Shown in pieces: positions 4,614 through 23,021 of a DNA stretch of 52,993 nt. Each line of letters begins with the position of its first letter. Within the stretch, counting starts at the first letter, position 1. This stretch comes from Parvularia atlantis (lineage: Eukaryota; Opisthokonta; Rotosphaerida): the NCBI GenBank assembly GCA_943704415.1, contig CALSCO010000804.1:1-52993 (forward strand), in the 5' to 3' direction. Both the position numbers and the translations under genes were made by a program. Below the pieces are notes generated by a model. The model was not told where the DNA came from, did no database searches, and worked only from the letters and a program-made list of their open reading frames with translations.

Positions 4614-15396
<10,783 letters not shown>

Positions 15397-15543
15397 GCGG
15401 GCGCGCATGCCCGAGCAGCGACAAGTTGCGACAATTGGTGGCGTGCGTTCGTGTGTGAGCTCTCTCGTTGTGCGTGGCATGTTGTGCACGTGTCTTTGCA
15501 GTGGTCAAAAATCATCAAGACAGACAACGGGAAGAAGAAAGGA

Positions 15544-17839
15544 TCAGGCGAACGGGTTGGTCTTGGCCGGCACCGTCGGCGCCGCAAAAGGGTTGTTTGC
15601 GGCGGGCGCGCCAAACGCGCCGCTACCCGAGGCAGACGCGAAGGGGTTGGTCGGCGCGCCGTACATCTGCGCGGCCGGTGCCGAGGCGCCCCAGCCGGGG
15701 GCCGGCTGCATCGCGTACGGCGCACCGAAAGGCTGTGCGCGCGCGGCGCAAGATTGGCACGCGAACACGCTGCGGCGCGCGATGCGCACCGTCTGCTGTG
15801 GTGCGGCGGCGTACTGTGGCCCGGCCGGGAAGCCAAACGCACCCATCTGCTGCGGTTGGCCAAACTGCGGCTGCTGGCCGAACGGCTGGCCAAACGCGCC
15901 CTGCTGCGGCTGGCCAAATGCGCCCTGCTGCTGGCCAAAGGGCTGGCGTGCACGTGTTGAGCACGCTCGCGTTGTGCCGCAAGCCGCACGACGGCACGTA
16001 CCGGCGCACCAAAGCCGCCGCCACCGCCGCCAAACGGCTGCGACGCGACCGCGAGAATGGCCTGCTTCTTTGTCTCGACGACGGGCGGCGGTTCGTCAAA
16101 GCTGAGCAGGTCCATCTCGGCCGCCTTCTTGGCGGGCGCGGGTGCCGGTGCCGGCTGCATACGCGGCTGTTGTTGTTGTTGCTGCTGCTGCTGCTGCGGT
16201 GCCGCCGTGACGCGGGTGCTGCCAAACGCGCCAAAGTCGTCAAAGCCGGCGGCGGCCTTCTGCTTGGCCGGCGCGGGTGCGCGCGCGGTCGAGAAGGCGT
16301 CAAAGTCGTCGAAATCACCACGGCTGGCCGCAGGCTTGGCGGCAGCCGCGACGGACGCGGAGGTCTTGCTGCCTGCCCGGGGCGTCAGCTGTTTGTGCAG
16401 CGACGCCGCCCGCGTACCGCTCGGCGAAAAGGCGTCGTCAAAGTCGCTGCCGCTGCCGGGCGCGTCGTTCAAGTGCAGGCGTTGGATGGGCGGCAAATCG
16501 TCGTTGGATGGCGCGGCGATGTTGCCGTCGATGTACGCCTGGAGCGAGTCGACGAGGGTGGCCGGAGGCTGTGACGCGGCGATGAGCTGCGCGAGCGTGG
16601 CGGGGTTGCGAGGTGGCGGGCGCGCGCGCACCGCCTTGAGCACGGGGATGTTGAGCTCGCGCGTGCCATCGTGGTTGCGGCCGACGTCGAGGAATTCGAT
16701 CACCTGCGCCGTGTACTTGACAAACGCCTTGTAGGCAGCGAGCGCGTTCTTGGCGACGTCCTTGGGCAGCTTGAAGTAGAACTCTGGGCACGCCGCGCGG
16801 CATGAGGCGCGAGTGGGGGCGCGCGACCGGCGGGACTCACCGAGCAGGTTGATGATGCCCTCGTTGAGCGAGTGGTACAGGCGCAGCAGGTCACGCACGA
16901 GCAGCTTGTACACCTCGAGCACGATCACGTTGTCGAGGTCGGTGCGCACATACTTGCACTCGAGCAGCGCGGCCATCTGCGGCGCGTAGCGCACGTTGGT
17001 CGCGCACTCACCACGACGATCGCACGGCACACGTCACCTGGCGCATGATCAAGTTGAGCAGGCGGATGAGTGCGTCCGGATCGGACCGGGCCGTGAGCTT
17101 GTTGGCCCTCTCGAGGCTGCCGCGCGGCGCGTGAGCGGCCGCGCACAGCGATCCGTTGGCGATGCCCGCACCTCTCGCGCACAAAGTCCATCTGCGCCTC
17201 CTTGAATGTCGCGGCCTTCTCTTCAAGGTACTGCGCGTACTTGCTGATGCCGGAGGCGTACGAGATGCCTGCGCGCCGCGCCCGTAAGCCTTCCCCTCGG
17301 CAAAGCGCGCGGGCGCGGCACCGTCGAGGCTGCAGCGCTCGCGGAACGAGCTCATGTTGAGGATCTGCGGCGAGAGCGCGACAAACTTCATGGCGCGCGA
17401 GTCGCTGCGGCCCGTGTGAGGCCAGGCGCACGAGAAGAGGGGGGTCCGCCGCCGCCCGCCGCCCGCACCGGTCGCGCATGATCTCGTGCGTGACAATGAG
17501 CGCCTTGTACGCGACCATCCAGCTCTTGGTGCTGTAGCGCTCGCTCAGAAAGTCAAACAGCTCGGCGAGCAGCTGCTTGCGGTCGGCGGCGGCGTCCTTG
17601 ATGGCTGCGGCGCGGCGCCGGGGGTCGGCGGCCCACGAAGCGCAACAGGAGAAACGTTGCCGCACTCTGCAGGTGCTTCGGCTTGGGCGGCGCGACGTCG
17701 TGGTTCGTCGCCTTGACCACGGCCGTGTCCAGCTCGGAGCCGGACGCGCGCAGCACGCGCAGCGTGTCCTGGGCGCGGCACGACGTCAGGGCGGGCGCGG
17801 CAAACGGCGAGACGCGGCCGCGCGGACCTTGCCCGACAT
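15544..17839 (-). CDS. AP180/CALM (PICALM)-type clathrin assembly protein with ANTH domain
   Basis: AP180/CALM proteins bind PI(4,5)P2 through an N-terminal ANTH domain and recruit clathrin and cargo at the plasma membrane. The minus-strand gene begins with the tiny exon MSGK. The ANTH domain follows: GSELDTAVVKATNHDVAPPK (family form KATxHxxxxPKxKHL), KSWMVAYKALIVTHEIMR, RDLLRLYHSLNEGIINLLG, FYFKLPKDVAKNALAAYKAF and VIEFLDVGRNHD. The C-terminal half is disordered, with repeated D[FD]D[AD]F-like acidic-Phe motifs (FDDAF, FDDFDAF, FDDFGAF) that would bind AP-2 or clathrin. It also has LLSFDEPPPVVE (a clathrin-box-like site), a 10-Gln tract, QPFG repeats, and NPF motifs at the very end (TNPFASASG, NNPFAAP, TNPFA-stop) that would bind EH domains. 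At least eight introns are visible. The stop is 147 bp beyond the myosin stop (convergent). Confidence 0.92.
16168..16197. repeat. Trinucleotide repeat encoding poly-Gln in AP180
   Basis: Four TTG/TGT-phase and six CTG-phase triplets on the plus strand encode ten Gln on the minus strand, in the disordered tail of the AP180-like protein. It is coding and in frame. Confidence 0.85.
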
Positions 17840-17994
17840 CCACCGGTCGAGCGTCGAGTCAAAAATCGACTCGACACGCTTTGATGGTCGTGCCAGAAAC
17901 TGGCACATGCACTTTCTTTCGCGAACGTGAGCAGCGGGCGCTGACAGGTGCGGTGCGGAAATCACCGCAGTACACAAAAAGCGGCCGCTGCGCA

Positions 17995-20211
17995 ATGAGT
18001 CGCGACGGTGTTACCGTTCGCCTGAAGTCCGACGACTCCTCGGATCAGGCCCGCGATGCGGCCCAGCGAGCGCAAGACAAGCCCACGGCAGCCGCGGCCG
18101 AGGGCGCTCAAGTTTCGCCCTCTGCCGACGTCGTCGACCAGGTGGAGAAGGAGTTCAGCATTCTCACTCTCAGTCCCGATCCCCGTCAGTGGTCCGTTGC
18201 CGACGTCTGCTCGACATGGCTCCCATCAGTCGGCCTCGGCGAGCACGCGGTCCTTTTCAGGCAGAAGGGTGTACATGGCAGCGATTTGCTTCGCCTCAAT
18301 GCTGACGTCAAGTTGCGCGACGAGCTCGGCATTACTGACGCAGGCAAGCGTATGCCGATTCGCGTGGCGCTCGGAGACGTGGCAACACTAGTCGTCGGCC
18401 TCTCTTTGGGCACCACCGTTACCGCCAGGACCGTGCCGCCTCCTGCACCGCATGCGGACTCGTACAGCGACAAGGCGCGCCACACTGCTTACCTGGACAG
18501 CAACAGGCTGAACGGAGATGAGATTCTTGGCAACAACGGCTTTGACGAGGCGTGCATCGTGGCGACCTCCAAGCTCGACCGTGCTTTGCAGTACCTTGAC
18601 AAAGAGTCGCCGCTGCTGTACATCCGCGCCCCGCCAGGGTCGGGCAAAACTGTCTTTGGTGTGAAGCTGGTGAAGAGGCTCATTGCCGACGGCAAGACTG
18701 TGTACTACTACAGCCTCAACGGCCTCGACACGCGGAAGGACGCAACGACCATGGACGGTTTTGACAAAGTCCTGCAGGACAAGCATAGAAATCTCCCGGG
18801 TGCGTCGTGGAGCGACATCTTGTACCGGTGTGCGTCTGAGTTTGAGGACATCTACGTCGTCATGGACAAAGCACAGACGCTGTTCCAGCAGGCCGACACA
18901 TCTGACGCACGGCGCGCGGACTTTGCGTTCTTCTGGGCCACTTTCAAGACGAAGAGCCCTGCGCTGCACGTCCTTTTCCTGGCGTCATACGGCTACGCTG
19001 ACGAATCGACGAATCAGAGGGCGGGCTCGCCGGCGGAGCTTCGCAACGCCAGACTTCTCGGCTTTGACTTTTTGCAGCTGACCGAGGACGAGTTCCGCGA
19101 GGCGACGGAGACGAGGGCCAGTCGACGTGACAAAAAGCCAGTCACTATCCACCCCTCGGTCATGCACGAGATCTACGTGGGCGCGGCCGGGCACGCTCGC
19201 ACTCTGCGGGCCGCTACGGATGCCATCCACAACAACGGCGGGCCTCAGCGTCTCGACAGCGAGGAGCGTCAGTTGAAGTTTGTCCGCGACGAACAGGGAG
19301 TCTTCTTCAGCACCGTGGTGGCTGCGCGCCCGTTGACAGATTTCCGTCTCATGTTCGATTCGGACGAGCTAAATTTCGAGGACAGGTGCACCTTGCTGCG
19401 GTACGCGGCGGGCACCGACAGCCACATCATTGTCCCGTCTACGTTGGGCCAGAAGCTCGTCGCGATGGGCCTGTTTCACACGTCGGGGAGAGACTTTGAG
19501 ATGCTCAGCATCCTCAGCCCCTACGCCCGCGAGGCGCTGCGGCAGTACTGCCGGTCGTACAAGATCACCGACAAGCGTCTCGAAAAGTATGCCGCCGATC
19601 AAATAGCTTACCGGACTCTGTCGGAGAGCGAGCGCGCGTTCATTCCCGTGGTCGATGTGCCGTATGAGCAGCTGTTTGCCGAGCTCACCATCATGGGTAT
19701 CGCCCGCATGAGCCGGGTTGCCCTGCAAAGGACGGTCGTAAGAGACGTCGAGCTGACCAACAACCCCGTCGAGGCCATCTTTCAGCACCAATTTGGCGCC
19801 AGCATAAACACTCTGATGCCAGTCGGGAAAGGCGCCGTCCAACACTTCAGCGCGGAAGCTGGGCGCGAAATCAAAGCAGCATGCAAAGTTGACTTTCATC
19901 TCAACAGCCGCTTCAACTTCCTGTGGGAGCTCGTGCGCGGCAACGACAGCATTCCGGAACACCTGTCGCGCTTCCATCCCGTCTCGGCTACGAAGAAGTA
20001 CCCACGCGAGAGCGAATACCGAGCGTACTGGCGGCACGATCGACCGCCGCCGACGTGGGCTGTGATCGACTTCCGGTCAAACAAGCCATTGGCGAGTGCC
20101 ATGCATGACAATGTCTGGTACGTCGTGTACGCGGCCGACTTTGCGTCCTTCAGCATCATGCGCACTGTGCAAAACGACATCTGGACGACCACCCTTCCCT
20201 TCGCCCCGTGA
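17995..20211 (+). CDS. Intronless SAM domain + P-loop NTPase + REase-fold protein of the Crinkler/RHS class
   Basis: One uninterrupted 738-codon frame; all directly neighbouring genes are split. Residues ~64-130 form a SAM domain (WSVADVCSTWL, GSDLLRLNADVKLRDELGI). Residues ~183-420 are a P-loop NTPase, with Walker A APPGSGKT at 212-219 and Walker B IYVVMDKAQ at 286-294, followed by an all-helical part. Residues ~590-720 match the Crinkler-type restriction-endonuclease-like domain: VEAIFQHQF (E593), EAGREI, KVDFHL (D633), WELVRGND (E645), PEHLSRF and AVIDFR. This NTPase-nuclease architecture is known from oomycete/chytrid CRN effectors and trypanosome RHS proteins. There is no signal peptide and no LFLAK-type header; the SAM domain takes the N-terminal place. 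It looks whole. An in-frame ATG at 17884 would add 37 residues, but 17995 is better separated from AP180. Role inferred: nuclear effector or intragenomic-conflict protein; nuclease activity is unproven. Confidence 0.8.
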   Translation: MSRDGVTVRLKSDDSSDQARDAAQRAQDKPTAAAAEGAQVSPSADVVDQVEKEFSILTLSPDPRQWSVADVCSTWLPSVGLGEHAVLFRQKGVHGSDLLRLNADVKLRDELGITDAGKRMPIRVALGDVATLVVGLSLGTTVTARTVPPPAPHADSYSDKARHTAYLDSNRLNGDEILGNNGFDEACIVATSKLDRALQYLDKESPLLYIRAPPGSGKTVFGVKLVKRLIADGKTVYYYSLNGLDTRKDATTMDGFDKVLQDKHRNLPGASWSDILYRCASEFEDIYVVMDKAQTLFQQADTSDARRADFAFFWATFKTKSPALHVLFLASYGYADESTNQRAGSPAELRNARLLGFDFLQLTEDEFREATETRASRRDKKPVTIHPSVMHEIYVGAAGHARTLRAATDAIHNNGGPQRLDSEERQLKFVRDEQGVFFSTVVAARPLTDFRLMFDSDELNFEDRCTLLRYAAGTDSHIIVPSTLGQKLVAMGLFHTSGRDFEMLSILSPYAREALRQYCRSYKITDKRLEKYAADQIAYRTLSESERAFIPVVDVPYEQLFAELTIMGIARMSRVALQRTVVRDVELTNNPVEAIFQHQFGASINTLMPVGKGAVQHFSAEAGREIKAACKVDFHLNSRFNFLWELVRGNDSIPEHLSRFHPVSATKKYPRESEYRAYWRHDRPPPTWAVIDFRSNKPLASAMHDNVWYVVYAADFASFSIMRTVQNDIWTTTLPFAP

Positions 20212-20435
20212 GTGTCGCTCTTTCTCCTGTGTACTTTGATTACGTACTAAGAGTCACAAGCTGCCACTCAGGCTGGTGGGCCCCGGCCGCGAGGCTTGAA
20301 CAGTTGAAGTTTACCTGTCGTGCACGCCCTCGCCCCCCACCGTATTCAGTGTGGCGGACAGTCACTGATTCGTGGCACGTGTTTCGTCTCACCATCCCCG
20401 GTGGCAGGCTCTCGCACGCGCTTCGACCGCACACG

Positions 20436-22396
20436 ATGGATACGGAGACCTTCAGGCGCGAGGGCCACGCGCTGGTCGACTTCATCGCCGACTACTACAC
20501 GCGCCTTGCGCGCGACGAGTACCCCGTGCTGTCCACGGTGCAGCCCGGGTACCTCGCGAAGCTGCTGCCGGCCGAGTGCCCGCAGGGTGCGCATGCGATG
20601 CCGTGCCACGCGATGCGGCCACGCCTCACGCGGGTGCGCACAACCAGAGCCCGAGCCGTTCGCCGCGGTGCAGCGCGACCTCGTCGACAAGATCATGCCC
20701 GGCGTCACGCACTGGCAGAGCCCCAGCTTCTTCGCCTACTTCCCGGCCAACGCGTCCTTCCCGGCCATGCTGGGCGACATGGTTTCGGGCATGATCAACT
20801 GCATCGGCTTCAACTGGGTATGCTGCGCATCGGGCGTGTGACCGGCTGCGCCGCGAGCTCAGGCGCGTCGCAGGTGTGCAGCCCGGCCTGCACCGAGCTC
20901 GAGACGGTCACGCTCGACTGGATGGCGCGCCTGCTCGAGCTCCCGGCCAAGTTTATGTCCAGCGGCACGGGCGGCGGCGTAATCCAGGTGCGGGCGCGCT
21001 GTCGTGCAGGCTGCGGTGCTGAGGGCTGCGGGCCGCAGGGCACGGCGAGCGAGGCCGTGATTGTGTGCATGCTCGCCGCCCGCAAGCGCACCAGCAAGCG
21101 CCACGCCGACGTCGAGGCCGGCGTGCTCAACGCGCGGCTGGTGGCGTACGCCTCGGCGCAGGCGCACTCGAGCGTGAAGAAGGCCGCGATGGTGGCTAAC
21201 GTGCTCATGCGTGACGTGCCCGCACGCGACGACTTCTCGATCGACACGGAGCGGCTCGCGGCGATGATCGAGGTGCGGGCGTGCGCCACGTGCACGCGTG
21301 CGCGTGCCGCTGAGACCACGGGCGCCGGCCGCAGGAGGACATCGCCAAGGGCCTGTTGCCGTTTTTCGTCTGCGGCACGATCGGCACCACGAGCTCGGGC
21401 GCGGTCGACCACATCGGCGTGATCGGCAAGATCGGTGCGCGCGCCGTGCAGTGCGCCTTGCAGTGTGCTCACGCTGCCGCGGCGCGGTGCAGCCGAGGCG
21501 CACGACCTGTGGTTTCACGTCGACGCGGCCTGGGCGGGCTCGGCCGCCGTGTGCCCGGAGCACCGCCACCTGCTGCGCGGGCTGGACCTGGCCACGTCGT
21601 ACAACTTCAATATGCACAAGGTACGCCGCACGGGGATGCGGTGCCGCGCGCACGTGATCCGCTGACGGCGCCGCCGCAGTGGCTCCTGACCAACTTTGAC
21701 TGCTCGCTGCTCTGGGTCGAGCGGCGCAGCGACCTGCTTGACGCGTTCTCGATCACGCCCGAGTACCTGCGCAACAAGGCGTCCGAGTCGGGTGCGCGCC
21801 GTGGGTGCGCGCACGCCGTTGACGCCGCGCGCCCGCGCAGGCCTCGTGACCGACTACCGCGACTGGCAGCTGCCGCTCGGGCGGCGCTTCCGCTCGCTCA
21901 AGATGTGGTTTGTGATGCGCTGCTACGGCGTGTCGGGCCTGCAGGCGCACATCCGCAAGGTCGGCGTGCGCGCTGCCTTGTGGCGCGCGGCGGCGGCTGA
22001 CGCGTTCGAGCCGCGCGCAGCACATCACGCAGGCCGAGCTGTTCGAGTCGCTCGTGCGCGGCGACGAGCGCTTCGAGCTGGTCGCGCCGCGGTCGCTGTC
22101 GCTGGTGTGCTTCCGCCTTGTGCCGCCAGCGAGCGCGAACGCCTCGGCCGATCAGGTGGACGAGCTCAACCGCAAGTTTGAGGACACCGTCAGTGCGTGG
22201 CGTCGCGCGGGCTGCGATGCGCTGCTCACTCTTGTGTGCGCGCACGGCAGATACGCGCGGCGTGTTCATCATCCACACGTCGCTCGCCGGCAAGTACGTC
22301 CTGCGCTTCGTCCCGGGCTCGCCCTGGACCGAGGAGCGGCACGTCCGCGCGGCCTTTGCGACGTTCCAGCAGGTCGCCAGCGAGCTCCTTGTTTAG
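20436..22396 (+). CDS. Aromatic-L-amino-acid decarboxylase (PLP group II decarboxylase)
   Basis: Group II PLP decarboxylases convert aromatic amino acids (DOPA, 5-HTP, Trp, Tyr or His) to amines in the cytosol. The start [20 protein letters not shown] matches the family N-terminus. Hallmarks in order are [48 protein letters not shown] joined to [20 protein letters not shown] (the His stacks on PLP), [24 protein letters not shown] (Asp salt-bridges the PLP nitrogen), and NFNMHK joined by splicing to [13 protein letters not shown]; the Lys is the Schiff-base residue. Then come [20 protein letters not shown] and FVLRF-like YVLRFVPGS near the end. About 10 exons. The sequence resembles animal DDC throughout, including the [15 protein letters not shown] mobile-loop region, but I cannot tell substrate preference (DDC, HDC or TDC). 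It lies 224 bp downstream of the Crinkler-class gene on the same strand. Confidence 0.93.
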
Positions 22397-22804
22397 GCTA
22401 CGGAGCGTCTTGTCGTTTGACCGGGGCAAGCGAAGAGCCTGACGCGATGCGCGCATGCGTACAAATGACAGTTGACCTCCACTCACGCAAGCGAGGCAAC
22501 AGACAGCAGTTGCCTGTACGTACTGCCACTTCACGTTCTTAGGGCAAACGCTGCGCACATAACCGCAAGCGGGTCCTCTGTTGTCGCGCCCGCGCACGTC
22601 GTCGGGTGGCTGGGCGCGCGGTGCGGGTGGGCGCGTGAGCGAGGGGCTGCGTGCTGCGGCGCTCCGGGCTGTGGCGCGCGCGCAGCGCGGCGTGCTGCGT
22701 GCGAGCGGGGGGGGGAGGCCCGTTCTGACGCCGCGCGGCCCAAAACGCACAGCTCAGCGCGCCGGCGGCCGCTCCACCGGCGGCGACACCGCGTCTTCCA
22801 TCAC

Positions 22805-22837
<33 letters not shown>

Positions 22838-23021
22838 GCGTCATCGGCGCGCGCGCCCCGTCCCAGTGCCCGCCCCACCGCCTTCCCCTCCCCCCGCGCG
22901 TCGCTCGCCCGCCCCACCCGCCGCCCCTCGCGAGGCGGGTCATGGACGTGCTAGTGGCCAAGGTGCGCCGCTGTGTGCACCCCAGCCGCAAAGGGACGCT
23001 TACCGCAGCAACGCCCCGCAG
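22397..23021. other. Intergenic/5' region with a CGT triplet repeat
   Basis: The first ~165 bp after the decarboxylase stop are less GC-rich and look like spacer or promoter. The rest is very GC-rich with a G-run near 22709 and ten CGT units at 22806-22835. One plus-strand frame stays open across the second half and joins the downstream gene but has no ATG, so I read it as 5' UTR. No RNA gene or mobile element seen. Confidence 0.5.
22806..22835. repeat. (CGT)10 microsatellite
   Basis: Ten perfect CGT units lie upstream of the proposed start of the F-box/LRR gene. They fall in an open frame reading poly-Arg without an ATG, so they are probably untranslated. Confidence 0.85.

Follow-up and report, generated by a model that had tools for sequence, protein, structure and literature searches.

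A likely Crinkler-like protein of Parvularia atlantis with a SAM domain as its header

Crinkler/RHS-type (CR) proteins were defined by Zhang et al. in 2016, whose content is taken here from the accessible part of a review (PMC5289972). The main CR tails described there are an NTPase joined to a restriction endonuclease-like (REase) domain (over a quarter) and a REase joined to a kinase (about a sixth). The headers vary, including ubiquitin-like, helical and, in eudicots, Myb-HTH types, and intracellular targets have been suggested for the Myb-HTH-headed proteins of eudicots (PMC5289972). The same part of the review states that true signal peptides were excluded for the CR headers by Zhang et al., and that the hypotheses on translocation by the headers are still to be tested (PMC5289972). 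SAM is not among the header types given in this part. No SAM-headed Crinkler was found in the literature searched; the tables of Zhang et al. 2016 may include SAM headers. The mentions of SAM in the accessible part of PMC7159879 refer to radical-SAM, not to the sterile alpha motif.

The window analysed here is a stretch of 52,993 nt of P. atlantis DNA (contig CALSCO010000804.1). The gene under study, the locus of which is labelled C191 and the protein of which is called P0001, joins a SAM header to an NTPase and a REase-like tail. The features of the gene and its neighbours are as follows.

17995..20211, + strand: SAM–NTPase–REase-like tail gene, a single frame of 738 aa with a GC3 of 0.764
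18187..18360, + strand: SAM domain (header), residues 65-122, assigned by Pfam
18535..19269, + strand: P-loop NTPase region, residues 181-425, STAND/AAA-like, assigned by HMM and motifs
18625..18651, + strand: Walker A, RAPPGSGKT, residues 211-219, the same in the paralogue C115
18850..18876, + strand: Walker B, IYVVMDKAQ, residues 286-294, assigned by motif
19423..19551, + strand: winged-helix-like linker, residues 477-519, assigned by eye without HMM support
19762..20142, + strand: REase-like tail (putative), residues 590-716, assigned by motifs and conservation in remnants
16482..17908, − strand: multi-exon ANTH-domain gene (PF07651), 6 exon pieces, 3' end unmapped
20436..21959, + strand: multi-exon pyridoxal-dependent decarboxylase (Pyridoxal_deC) gene (PF00282), 3' end unmapped

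The uninterrupted 738-residue frame described by an earlier, sequence-only reading of this DNA extends from 17995 to 20208 plus the stop codon, with no internal stops. The open stretch around it reaches 869 codons, none of the 300 base-composition shuffles of 17501-20700 exceeding 335 codons, and the codon positions of the gene are biased (GC1-3 of 0.607, 0.44, and 0.764). The gene is also GC-poorer than its surroundings, as that reading had judged by eye. Its GC content is 0.604; for 93 windows of 2214 bp from the rest of the 52,993-nt window, the mean is 0.698 (sd 0.019) and the lowest value is 0.643. The GC3 of the gene is also lower than that of the neighbour exons (0.931 over 1860 nt). 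The gene apparently has no introns, judging from the open frame alone, and is apparently intact. Both immediate neighbours are multi-exon, as had been noticed. The decarboxylase gene consists of 8 exon pieces separated by gaps of 51-64 nt, and PF00282 was matched in three of the four pieces tested. The first mapped ATG of the ANTH gene, of which 6 pieces were mapped, is 86 bp from the ATG of the gene under study.

The repeats near the gene, counted without a shuffle control, fall into 17 families of direct repeats of 14-31 nt and 17 inverted pairs of 14-28 nt, and the pairs flanking the gene are 14-31 nt long with 74-93% identity. Insertion as a mobile element was rejected, since no repeat around the gene is recognisable as element ends. 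All tandem arrays within 15000-23000 are outside the gene. A CGT triplet array of 13.7 copies is found downstream of the decarboxylase gene (22806-22846).

The SAM domain, which had been placed at residues 64-130, is matched above the cut-off by two Pfam families, PF07647 (residues 65-119, E 8.3e-7) and PF00536 (residues 65-122, E 8.7e-7). In a search of a two-row profile against the PDB, the top rows are the SAM domains of SHANK2, liprin-beta-1, SHANK3, SARM1, and DGK-delta. The SAM domains of SHANK, DGK-delta, and SARM1 polymerise or oligomerise. The DGK-delta SAM domain was also matched by Foldseek on the full weak model (target TM 0.80). Judging from resemblance to these three SAMs only, the header may form a head-to-tail polymer. 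No N-terminal hydrophobic segment was found, the means of 19-residue Kyte-Doolittle windows starting at residues 1-25 being −0.53 or lower, and the claimed lack of a signal peptide is borne out in this form. A hydrophobic stretch is located 3' of the SAM domain at residues 124-142 (Kyte-Doolittle 1.69) and could be a membrane segment. The proposal that the protein would be a non-secreted, self-associating version agrees with both the missing N-terminal hydrophobic segment and the likeness of the SAM profile.

The Walker A and Walker B motifs lie within one residue of the positions claimed for them (212-219 and 286-294). When the region of residues 181-425 was submitted alone, PF24883 NPHP3_N (25.5 bits, cut-off 24.8) and PF05707 Zot (21.2 bits, cut-off 20.3) were matched above the cut-offs, and nSTAND3 (21.6 bits, cut-off 27.2) below it. 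With the whole of P0001, all P-loop families are below the cut-offs (NPHP3_N, 22.8 bits). The NTPase is thus supported by the motifs and by borderline HMM matches, and these matches are compatible with more than one class of P-loop NTPase, since NPHP3_N and Zot both pass and nSTAND3 does not. PADLOC and NCBIfam gave only weak P-loop matches for P0001 and C115, the best being 18.6 bits compared with a cut-off of 156. A P-loop NTPase in the tail is a trait of CR proteins, and here it is found in the HMM matches and in Walker A and B motifs common to the window protein and C115 except for Lys292. The residue at this position should be noted. Walker B of the window copy is Asp291-Lys292, whereas it is Asp-Glu in C115 and in the remnant C165. 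The Asp-Lys pair may result in weak or absent ATP hydrolysis.

The motifs of the tail are E593, KVDF (D633), FLWELVR (E645 and R648), EHLSRF, and WAVIDFRS (688-695). E593, D633, E645, and the VIDFR motif are located where the sequence-only reading put them, within one residue. The stretch from D633 through E645 to RF is kept in the remnants C165 and C434, and no other part of C165 is as well conserved as the D/E block. Pfam gave no match for residues 426-738, and none for the C-terminal block even at E 10. A PDB profile search with this block returned 7 chains at E ≤ 10, none of which supports a REase fold, and the best PDB-profile match of the tail is a designed alphaRep (E 0.0034) with no stretch passing alone. 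The structure prediction that had been proposed as a check gave no usable model for the tail (AF2 mean pLDDT of 38.6, and 32.5 for the whole protein), leaving the REase fold without HMM, PDB, or model support. Foldseek on the full weak model listed C. elegans TIR-1 first and then mostly AAA+ proteins (Cdc48, RFC, DnaA, and ORC), together with NRC4 (resistosome) and Dark, with query TM < 0.2 in the rows shown. This list is only a hint, since both AF2 models are poor. A C-terminal REase-like nuclease fold is thus putative, proposed from the motifs and their conservation in the remnants, and cleavage of nucleic acid by the tail is a prediction.

The genome scanned consists of 16.25 Mb in 616 contigs. 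It gave no LHC match, whereas a Synechococcus control was positive, and the host is thus probably not an alga. The window copy is the only full-length SAM–NTPase–REase-like gene found in this genome, and the copy-number check proposed with the sequence-only reading revealed that it is not alone, being accompanied by a paralogue (C115) and two remnants (C165 and C434). C115 has SAM and NTPase in the same order with 31% identity to P0001, matches PF00004 AAA above the cut-off, and is cut by a contig end. C165 is rearranged, with an NTPase piece on one strand and tail pieces on the other. Identity to the window gene is 51% and 66% for its tail pieces, and 43% and 44% for its two other pieces. C434 is a tail remnant of the window-gene type with 33 residues.

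The best match to C115 outside the window gene is the SAM domain of C281. This locus is a single frame of 673 aa, in which SAM_2 (23.4 bits, cut-off 20.5) is followed by an HSDR_N-like block and DUF5898 (95 bits, cut-off 28.9), a family belonging to the PKinase clan of Pfam according to the accessible part of PMC9758233. The block submitted alone matches HSDR_N with 20.0 bits, below the cut-off of 25.1, and no NTPase was matched in C281. In C532, the SAM domain is followed by a kinase-like tail in another frame, due to an intron or a frameshift (Pkinase 27.5 bits, below the cut-off of 31.7). In C322, a probable intron separates the SAM domain from the Walker A motif GNPGIGKT (nSTAND3 14.8 bits, below the cut-off of 27.2), and the locus is cut by a contig end. 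SAM is thus found on NTPase plus REase-like and on REase-like plus kinase tails, that is, tails like both main CR classes stand behind a SAM header in this genome. The joining of a header to varied tails, another CR trait, is seen here as SAM on the tails of C191, C115, C322, C281, and C532. These five are among at least 19 SAM matches in the genome. As for the other 14 loci, the frame of C263 was read, no long frames below a GC of 0.67 were found at C164, C252, and C299, and ten were examined for SAM only. The Crinkler/RHS class assigned by the sequence-only reading is partly supported, by the SAM domain, the NTPase, and the other SAM-headed tails, while its REase fold is drawn from motifs and conservation.

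DUF5898 occurs at four places, C281, C96, C443, and C123. The frame of C443 (944 aa; L042:2464-4899, minus strand) contains two tandem repeated units, which are ubiquitin-like by eye without HMM support. These units are followed by a REase-like block and a DUF5898 domain. By eye, the former seems to have lost its catalytic residues and the latter has an altered catalytic motif; C443 is perhaps a pseudo-enzyme CR protein. C140 (L053:1049-1884, minus strand) has frames with a REase-like motif near a contig end, related to the C532 tail with 40% identity over residues 95-209.

Searches outside this genome gave few relatives. No homologue was found at E ≤ 1e-3 for P0001 among 7995 candidates scored from a database of 5.8 billion proteins, nor for the tail among 520 candidates scored from the same database. 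The comparison with other proteins proposed by the sequence-only reading gave no full-protein homologue among the scored candidates. C281 has a relative in a metagenome protein of 397 aa on a 1377-base contig, which has DUF5898 and the same REase-like block, is 33% identical over 72%, and has no SAM domain in the recovered part. The profiles of the Crinkler ubiquitin-like LXLFLAK header (PF20147) and RHSP (PF07999) did not match P0001 at E ≤ 1; across the genome they gave no match either, the positive controls being silent too. No prokaryotic relatives were found in GTDB contigs at the sensitivity of tblastn. A viral origin was rejected, since tblastn found no relative of P0001, C115, C281, or P0002 in IMG/VR contigs. 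In C532, the match to one IMG/VR contig was limited to the kinase-like frame, at residues 407-444.

Compared with the window gene, the tail pieces of C165 have changes at 32 of 105 first, 25 of 105 second, and 56 of 105 third codon positions, and the NG86 estimates are a dN of 0.32 and a dS of 2.2, near saturation, with a dN/dS of approximately 0.15. Constraint therefore acted on the tail before the decay of C165. At the end of their SAM domains, C322 and C115 have 49 of 52 nt in common (94%; L045:2007-2058 and L007:808-859). Their SAMs are nevertheless only 38% identical in protein and their tails are different, and the block ends 2 nt before the probable 5' splice site of C322. With the amino acids fixed, the P values for 45 identical nucleotides of 48 are 0.0001 and 0.015 under the codon usage of the family and of the neighbour genes, respectively. 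These observations point to a possible, fairly recent exchange of headers between C322 and C115, resting on one short block. In a tree of SAM domains (10 rows, 4 labelled CR-like with C322 counted with the rest, 3 changes, long branches), C115 and C281 are grouped with a support of 82/78. A single clade of CR-like SAM headers is not supported by this tree, with one group found in 0% of 200 bootstrap trees. The SAM domains of C532 and C322 are 47% identical.

The positions of the loci in their contigs should also be noted. In a post hoc count with locus limits set by ourselves, 8 of 11 CR-like loci (C115, C123, C96, C322, C140, C165, C434, and C532) are at most 2 kb away from a contig end, compared with 2.0 expected (P 4.5e-5). 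The other SAM loci, 10 of which were examined for the SAM domain only, are so in 3 of 14 cases, compared with 2.0 expected. The 11 loci are 13 candidates minus C132 (29 residues, E 0.0039) and C403 (E 0.0013), the latter being matched by query residues 310-395 with the acidic run included. The clustering suggests repeated or variable surroundings.

The sequence-only reading had proposed a recent arrival of the gene by transfer or as a retro-type copy. This is not supported, since all other members measured are likewise low in GC3 (0.71-0.84 in C115, C281, C443, and C96; 0.74 in C532), two other long single frames are present (C281 and C443), and a diverged paralogue (31% identity) and two decayed remnants lie in the same genome. 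Recent transfer of the window gene alone was rejected on the same grounds, and a diverse resident family with turnover fits better.

A Crinkler-like reading of the window gene is likely. The full explanation, a CR family member with a SAM header for assembly or recruitment, an NTPase switch, and a nuclease tail, is given an even chance. The SAM domain would self-associate or be recruited to a scaffold, the STAND/AAA-like NTPase would switch upon nucleotide binding, and the C-terminal REase-like domain would then act as an intracellular nuclease. The family seems to change through duplication, decay, and the swapping of headers and tails, as is the case for toxin-like conflict genes. An intracellular role is favoured by the lack of an N-terminal secretion-like segment. 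The targets may be invaders, rival organisms, or the own cell, and the mobile-element defence suggested by the sequence-only reading is one of several readings. A secreted effector against other organisms, like the oomycete Crinklers, with SAM in the delivery role of the ubiquitin-like header, is quite improbable. CR proteins of pathogens act in this way according to the accessible part of PMC5289972, but an N-terminal signal-like segment is missing here (though CR headers too are without true signal peptides in the same source), and the host is not known as a parasite.

An NLR-like SAM-STAND immune receptor, in which a ligand opens the NTPase, the SAM domain polymerises, and the C-terminus is a sensor or adaptor and not a nuclease, is unlikely, though it has some real chance. 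It is consistent with the NTPase region alone passing the NPHP3_N cut-off narrowly and with nSTAND3 matched below its own, with NRC4 resistosome and Dark in the Foldseek list of the weak model (query TM < 0.2), and with the N-termini of fungal NLRs, which include Crinkler-Ubl and SAM_Ste50p in the accessible part of PMC9815663. However, neither the whole of P0001 nor residues 426-738 matched a C-terminal repeat family, conservation in the C165 remnant is highest in the D/E block, and SAM also heads the REase-kinase protein C281, where no NTPase was matched. A selfish killer element spreading by harm to offspring without it would resemble Medea1, which consists of CR-NTPase8 and CR-REase7 (accessible part of PMC11342252); the remnants indicate copy turnover, and the contig-end positions suggest repeated or variable surroundings. 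We consider this about as improbable as the secreted effector, given that no mobile-element ends are recognised around the gene and that the clustering was noticed post hoc. A decaying relic, whose frame is open by chance and whose NTPase is damaged, would explain the Asp-Lys of Walker B in a genome with two decayed relatives, but the 869-codon open stretch (at most 335 in the 300 shuffles), the codon-position bias, and the conserved tail motifs make it very improbable.

The favoured reading, a SAM-headed CR protein, can be compared with the known systems. CR proteins with NTPase, HTH, and REase share with the window protein a header, a P-loop NTPase, an apparent winged helix (by eye), a REase-like block, and several diverged copies and remnants, judging from the accessible part of PMC5289972. 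The window protein differs in its SAM header and in matching no Crinkler or RHSP profile. Medea1 of Tribolium combines an NTPase and a REase, as proposed for the window protein, in the genome of a free-living eukaryote; SAM is not mentioned in the accessible part of PMC11342252, and the selfish behaviour is that of Medea1 and only a rival reading here. The REase-kinase CR class (CRN8 class) is resembled by C281, with its REase-like block and DUF5898, which is SAM-headed and has the architecture of a relative, not of the window gene. Where the classical oomycete Crinkler has its ubiquitin-like LXLFLAK header, the window protein has SAM, without a PF20147 match, and it differs from the kinetoplastid RHS proteins in not matching their profile PF07999. 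What is new here is that a single genome combines one header type, SAM, with tails resembling each of the two main CR classes; the CR tails themselves are known. The role of the CR header, delivery signal or intracellular adaptor, becomes testable with SAM, a small soluble domain whose role in assembly is well understood.

SARM1 is an octamer with a TIR NADase as its output. It is alike in that a SAM domain assembles an enzyme, and the SAM profile of the window protein matches the SARM1 SAMs, whereas the output of the latter is a TIR NADase and that of the window protein would be a putative NTPase-nuclease. Fungal NLRs have an N-terminal effector and a C-terminal repeat sensor; they differ from the window protein, which has no repeat family match. 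Both Ubl and SAM header types are found on NLR proteins according to the accessible part of PMC9815663. SAM on several CR-like tails would link Crinkler-type proteins to the assembly logic of SARM1 and NLRs. As a long shot, SAM and Ubl might be interchangeable headers of CR nucleases for assembly or scaffold recruitment, not for secretion, and the recombining SAM-headed set might be an intracellular nuclease defence gated by polymerisation. Such a defence would follow the same logic as SARM1 and the fungal NLRs, but with DNA cutting as its output.
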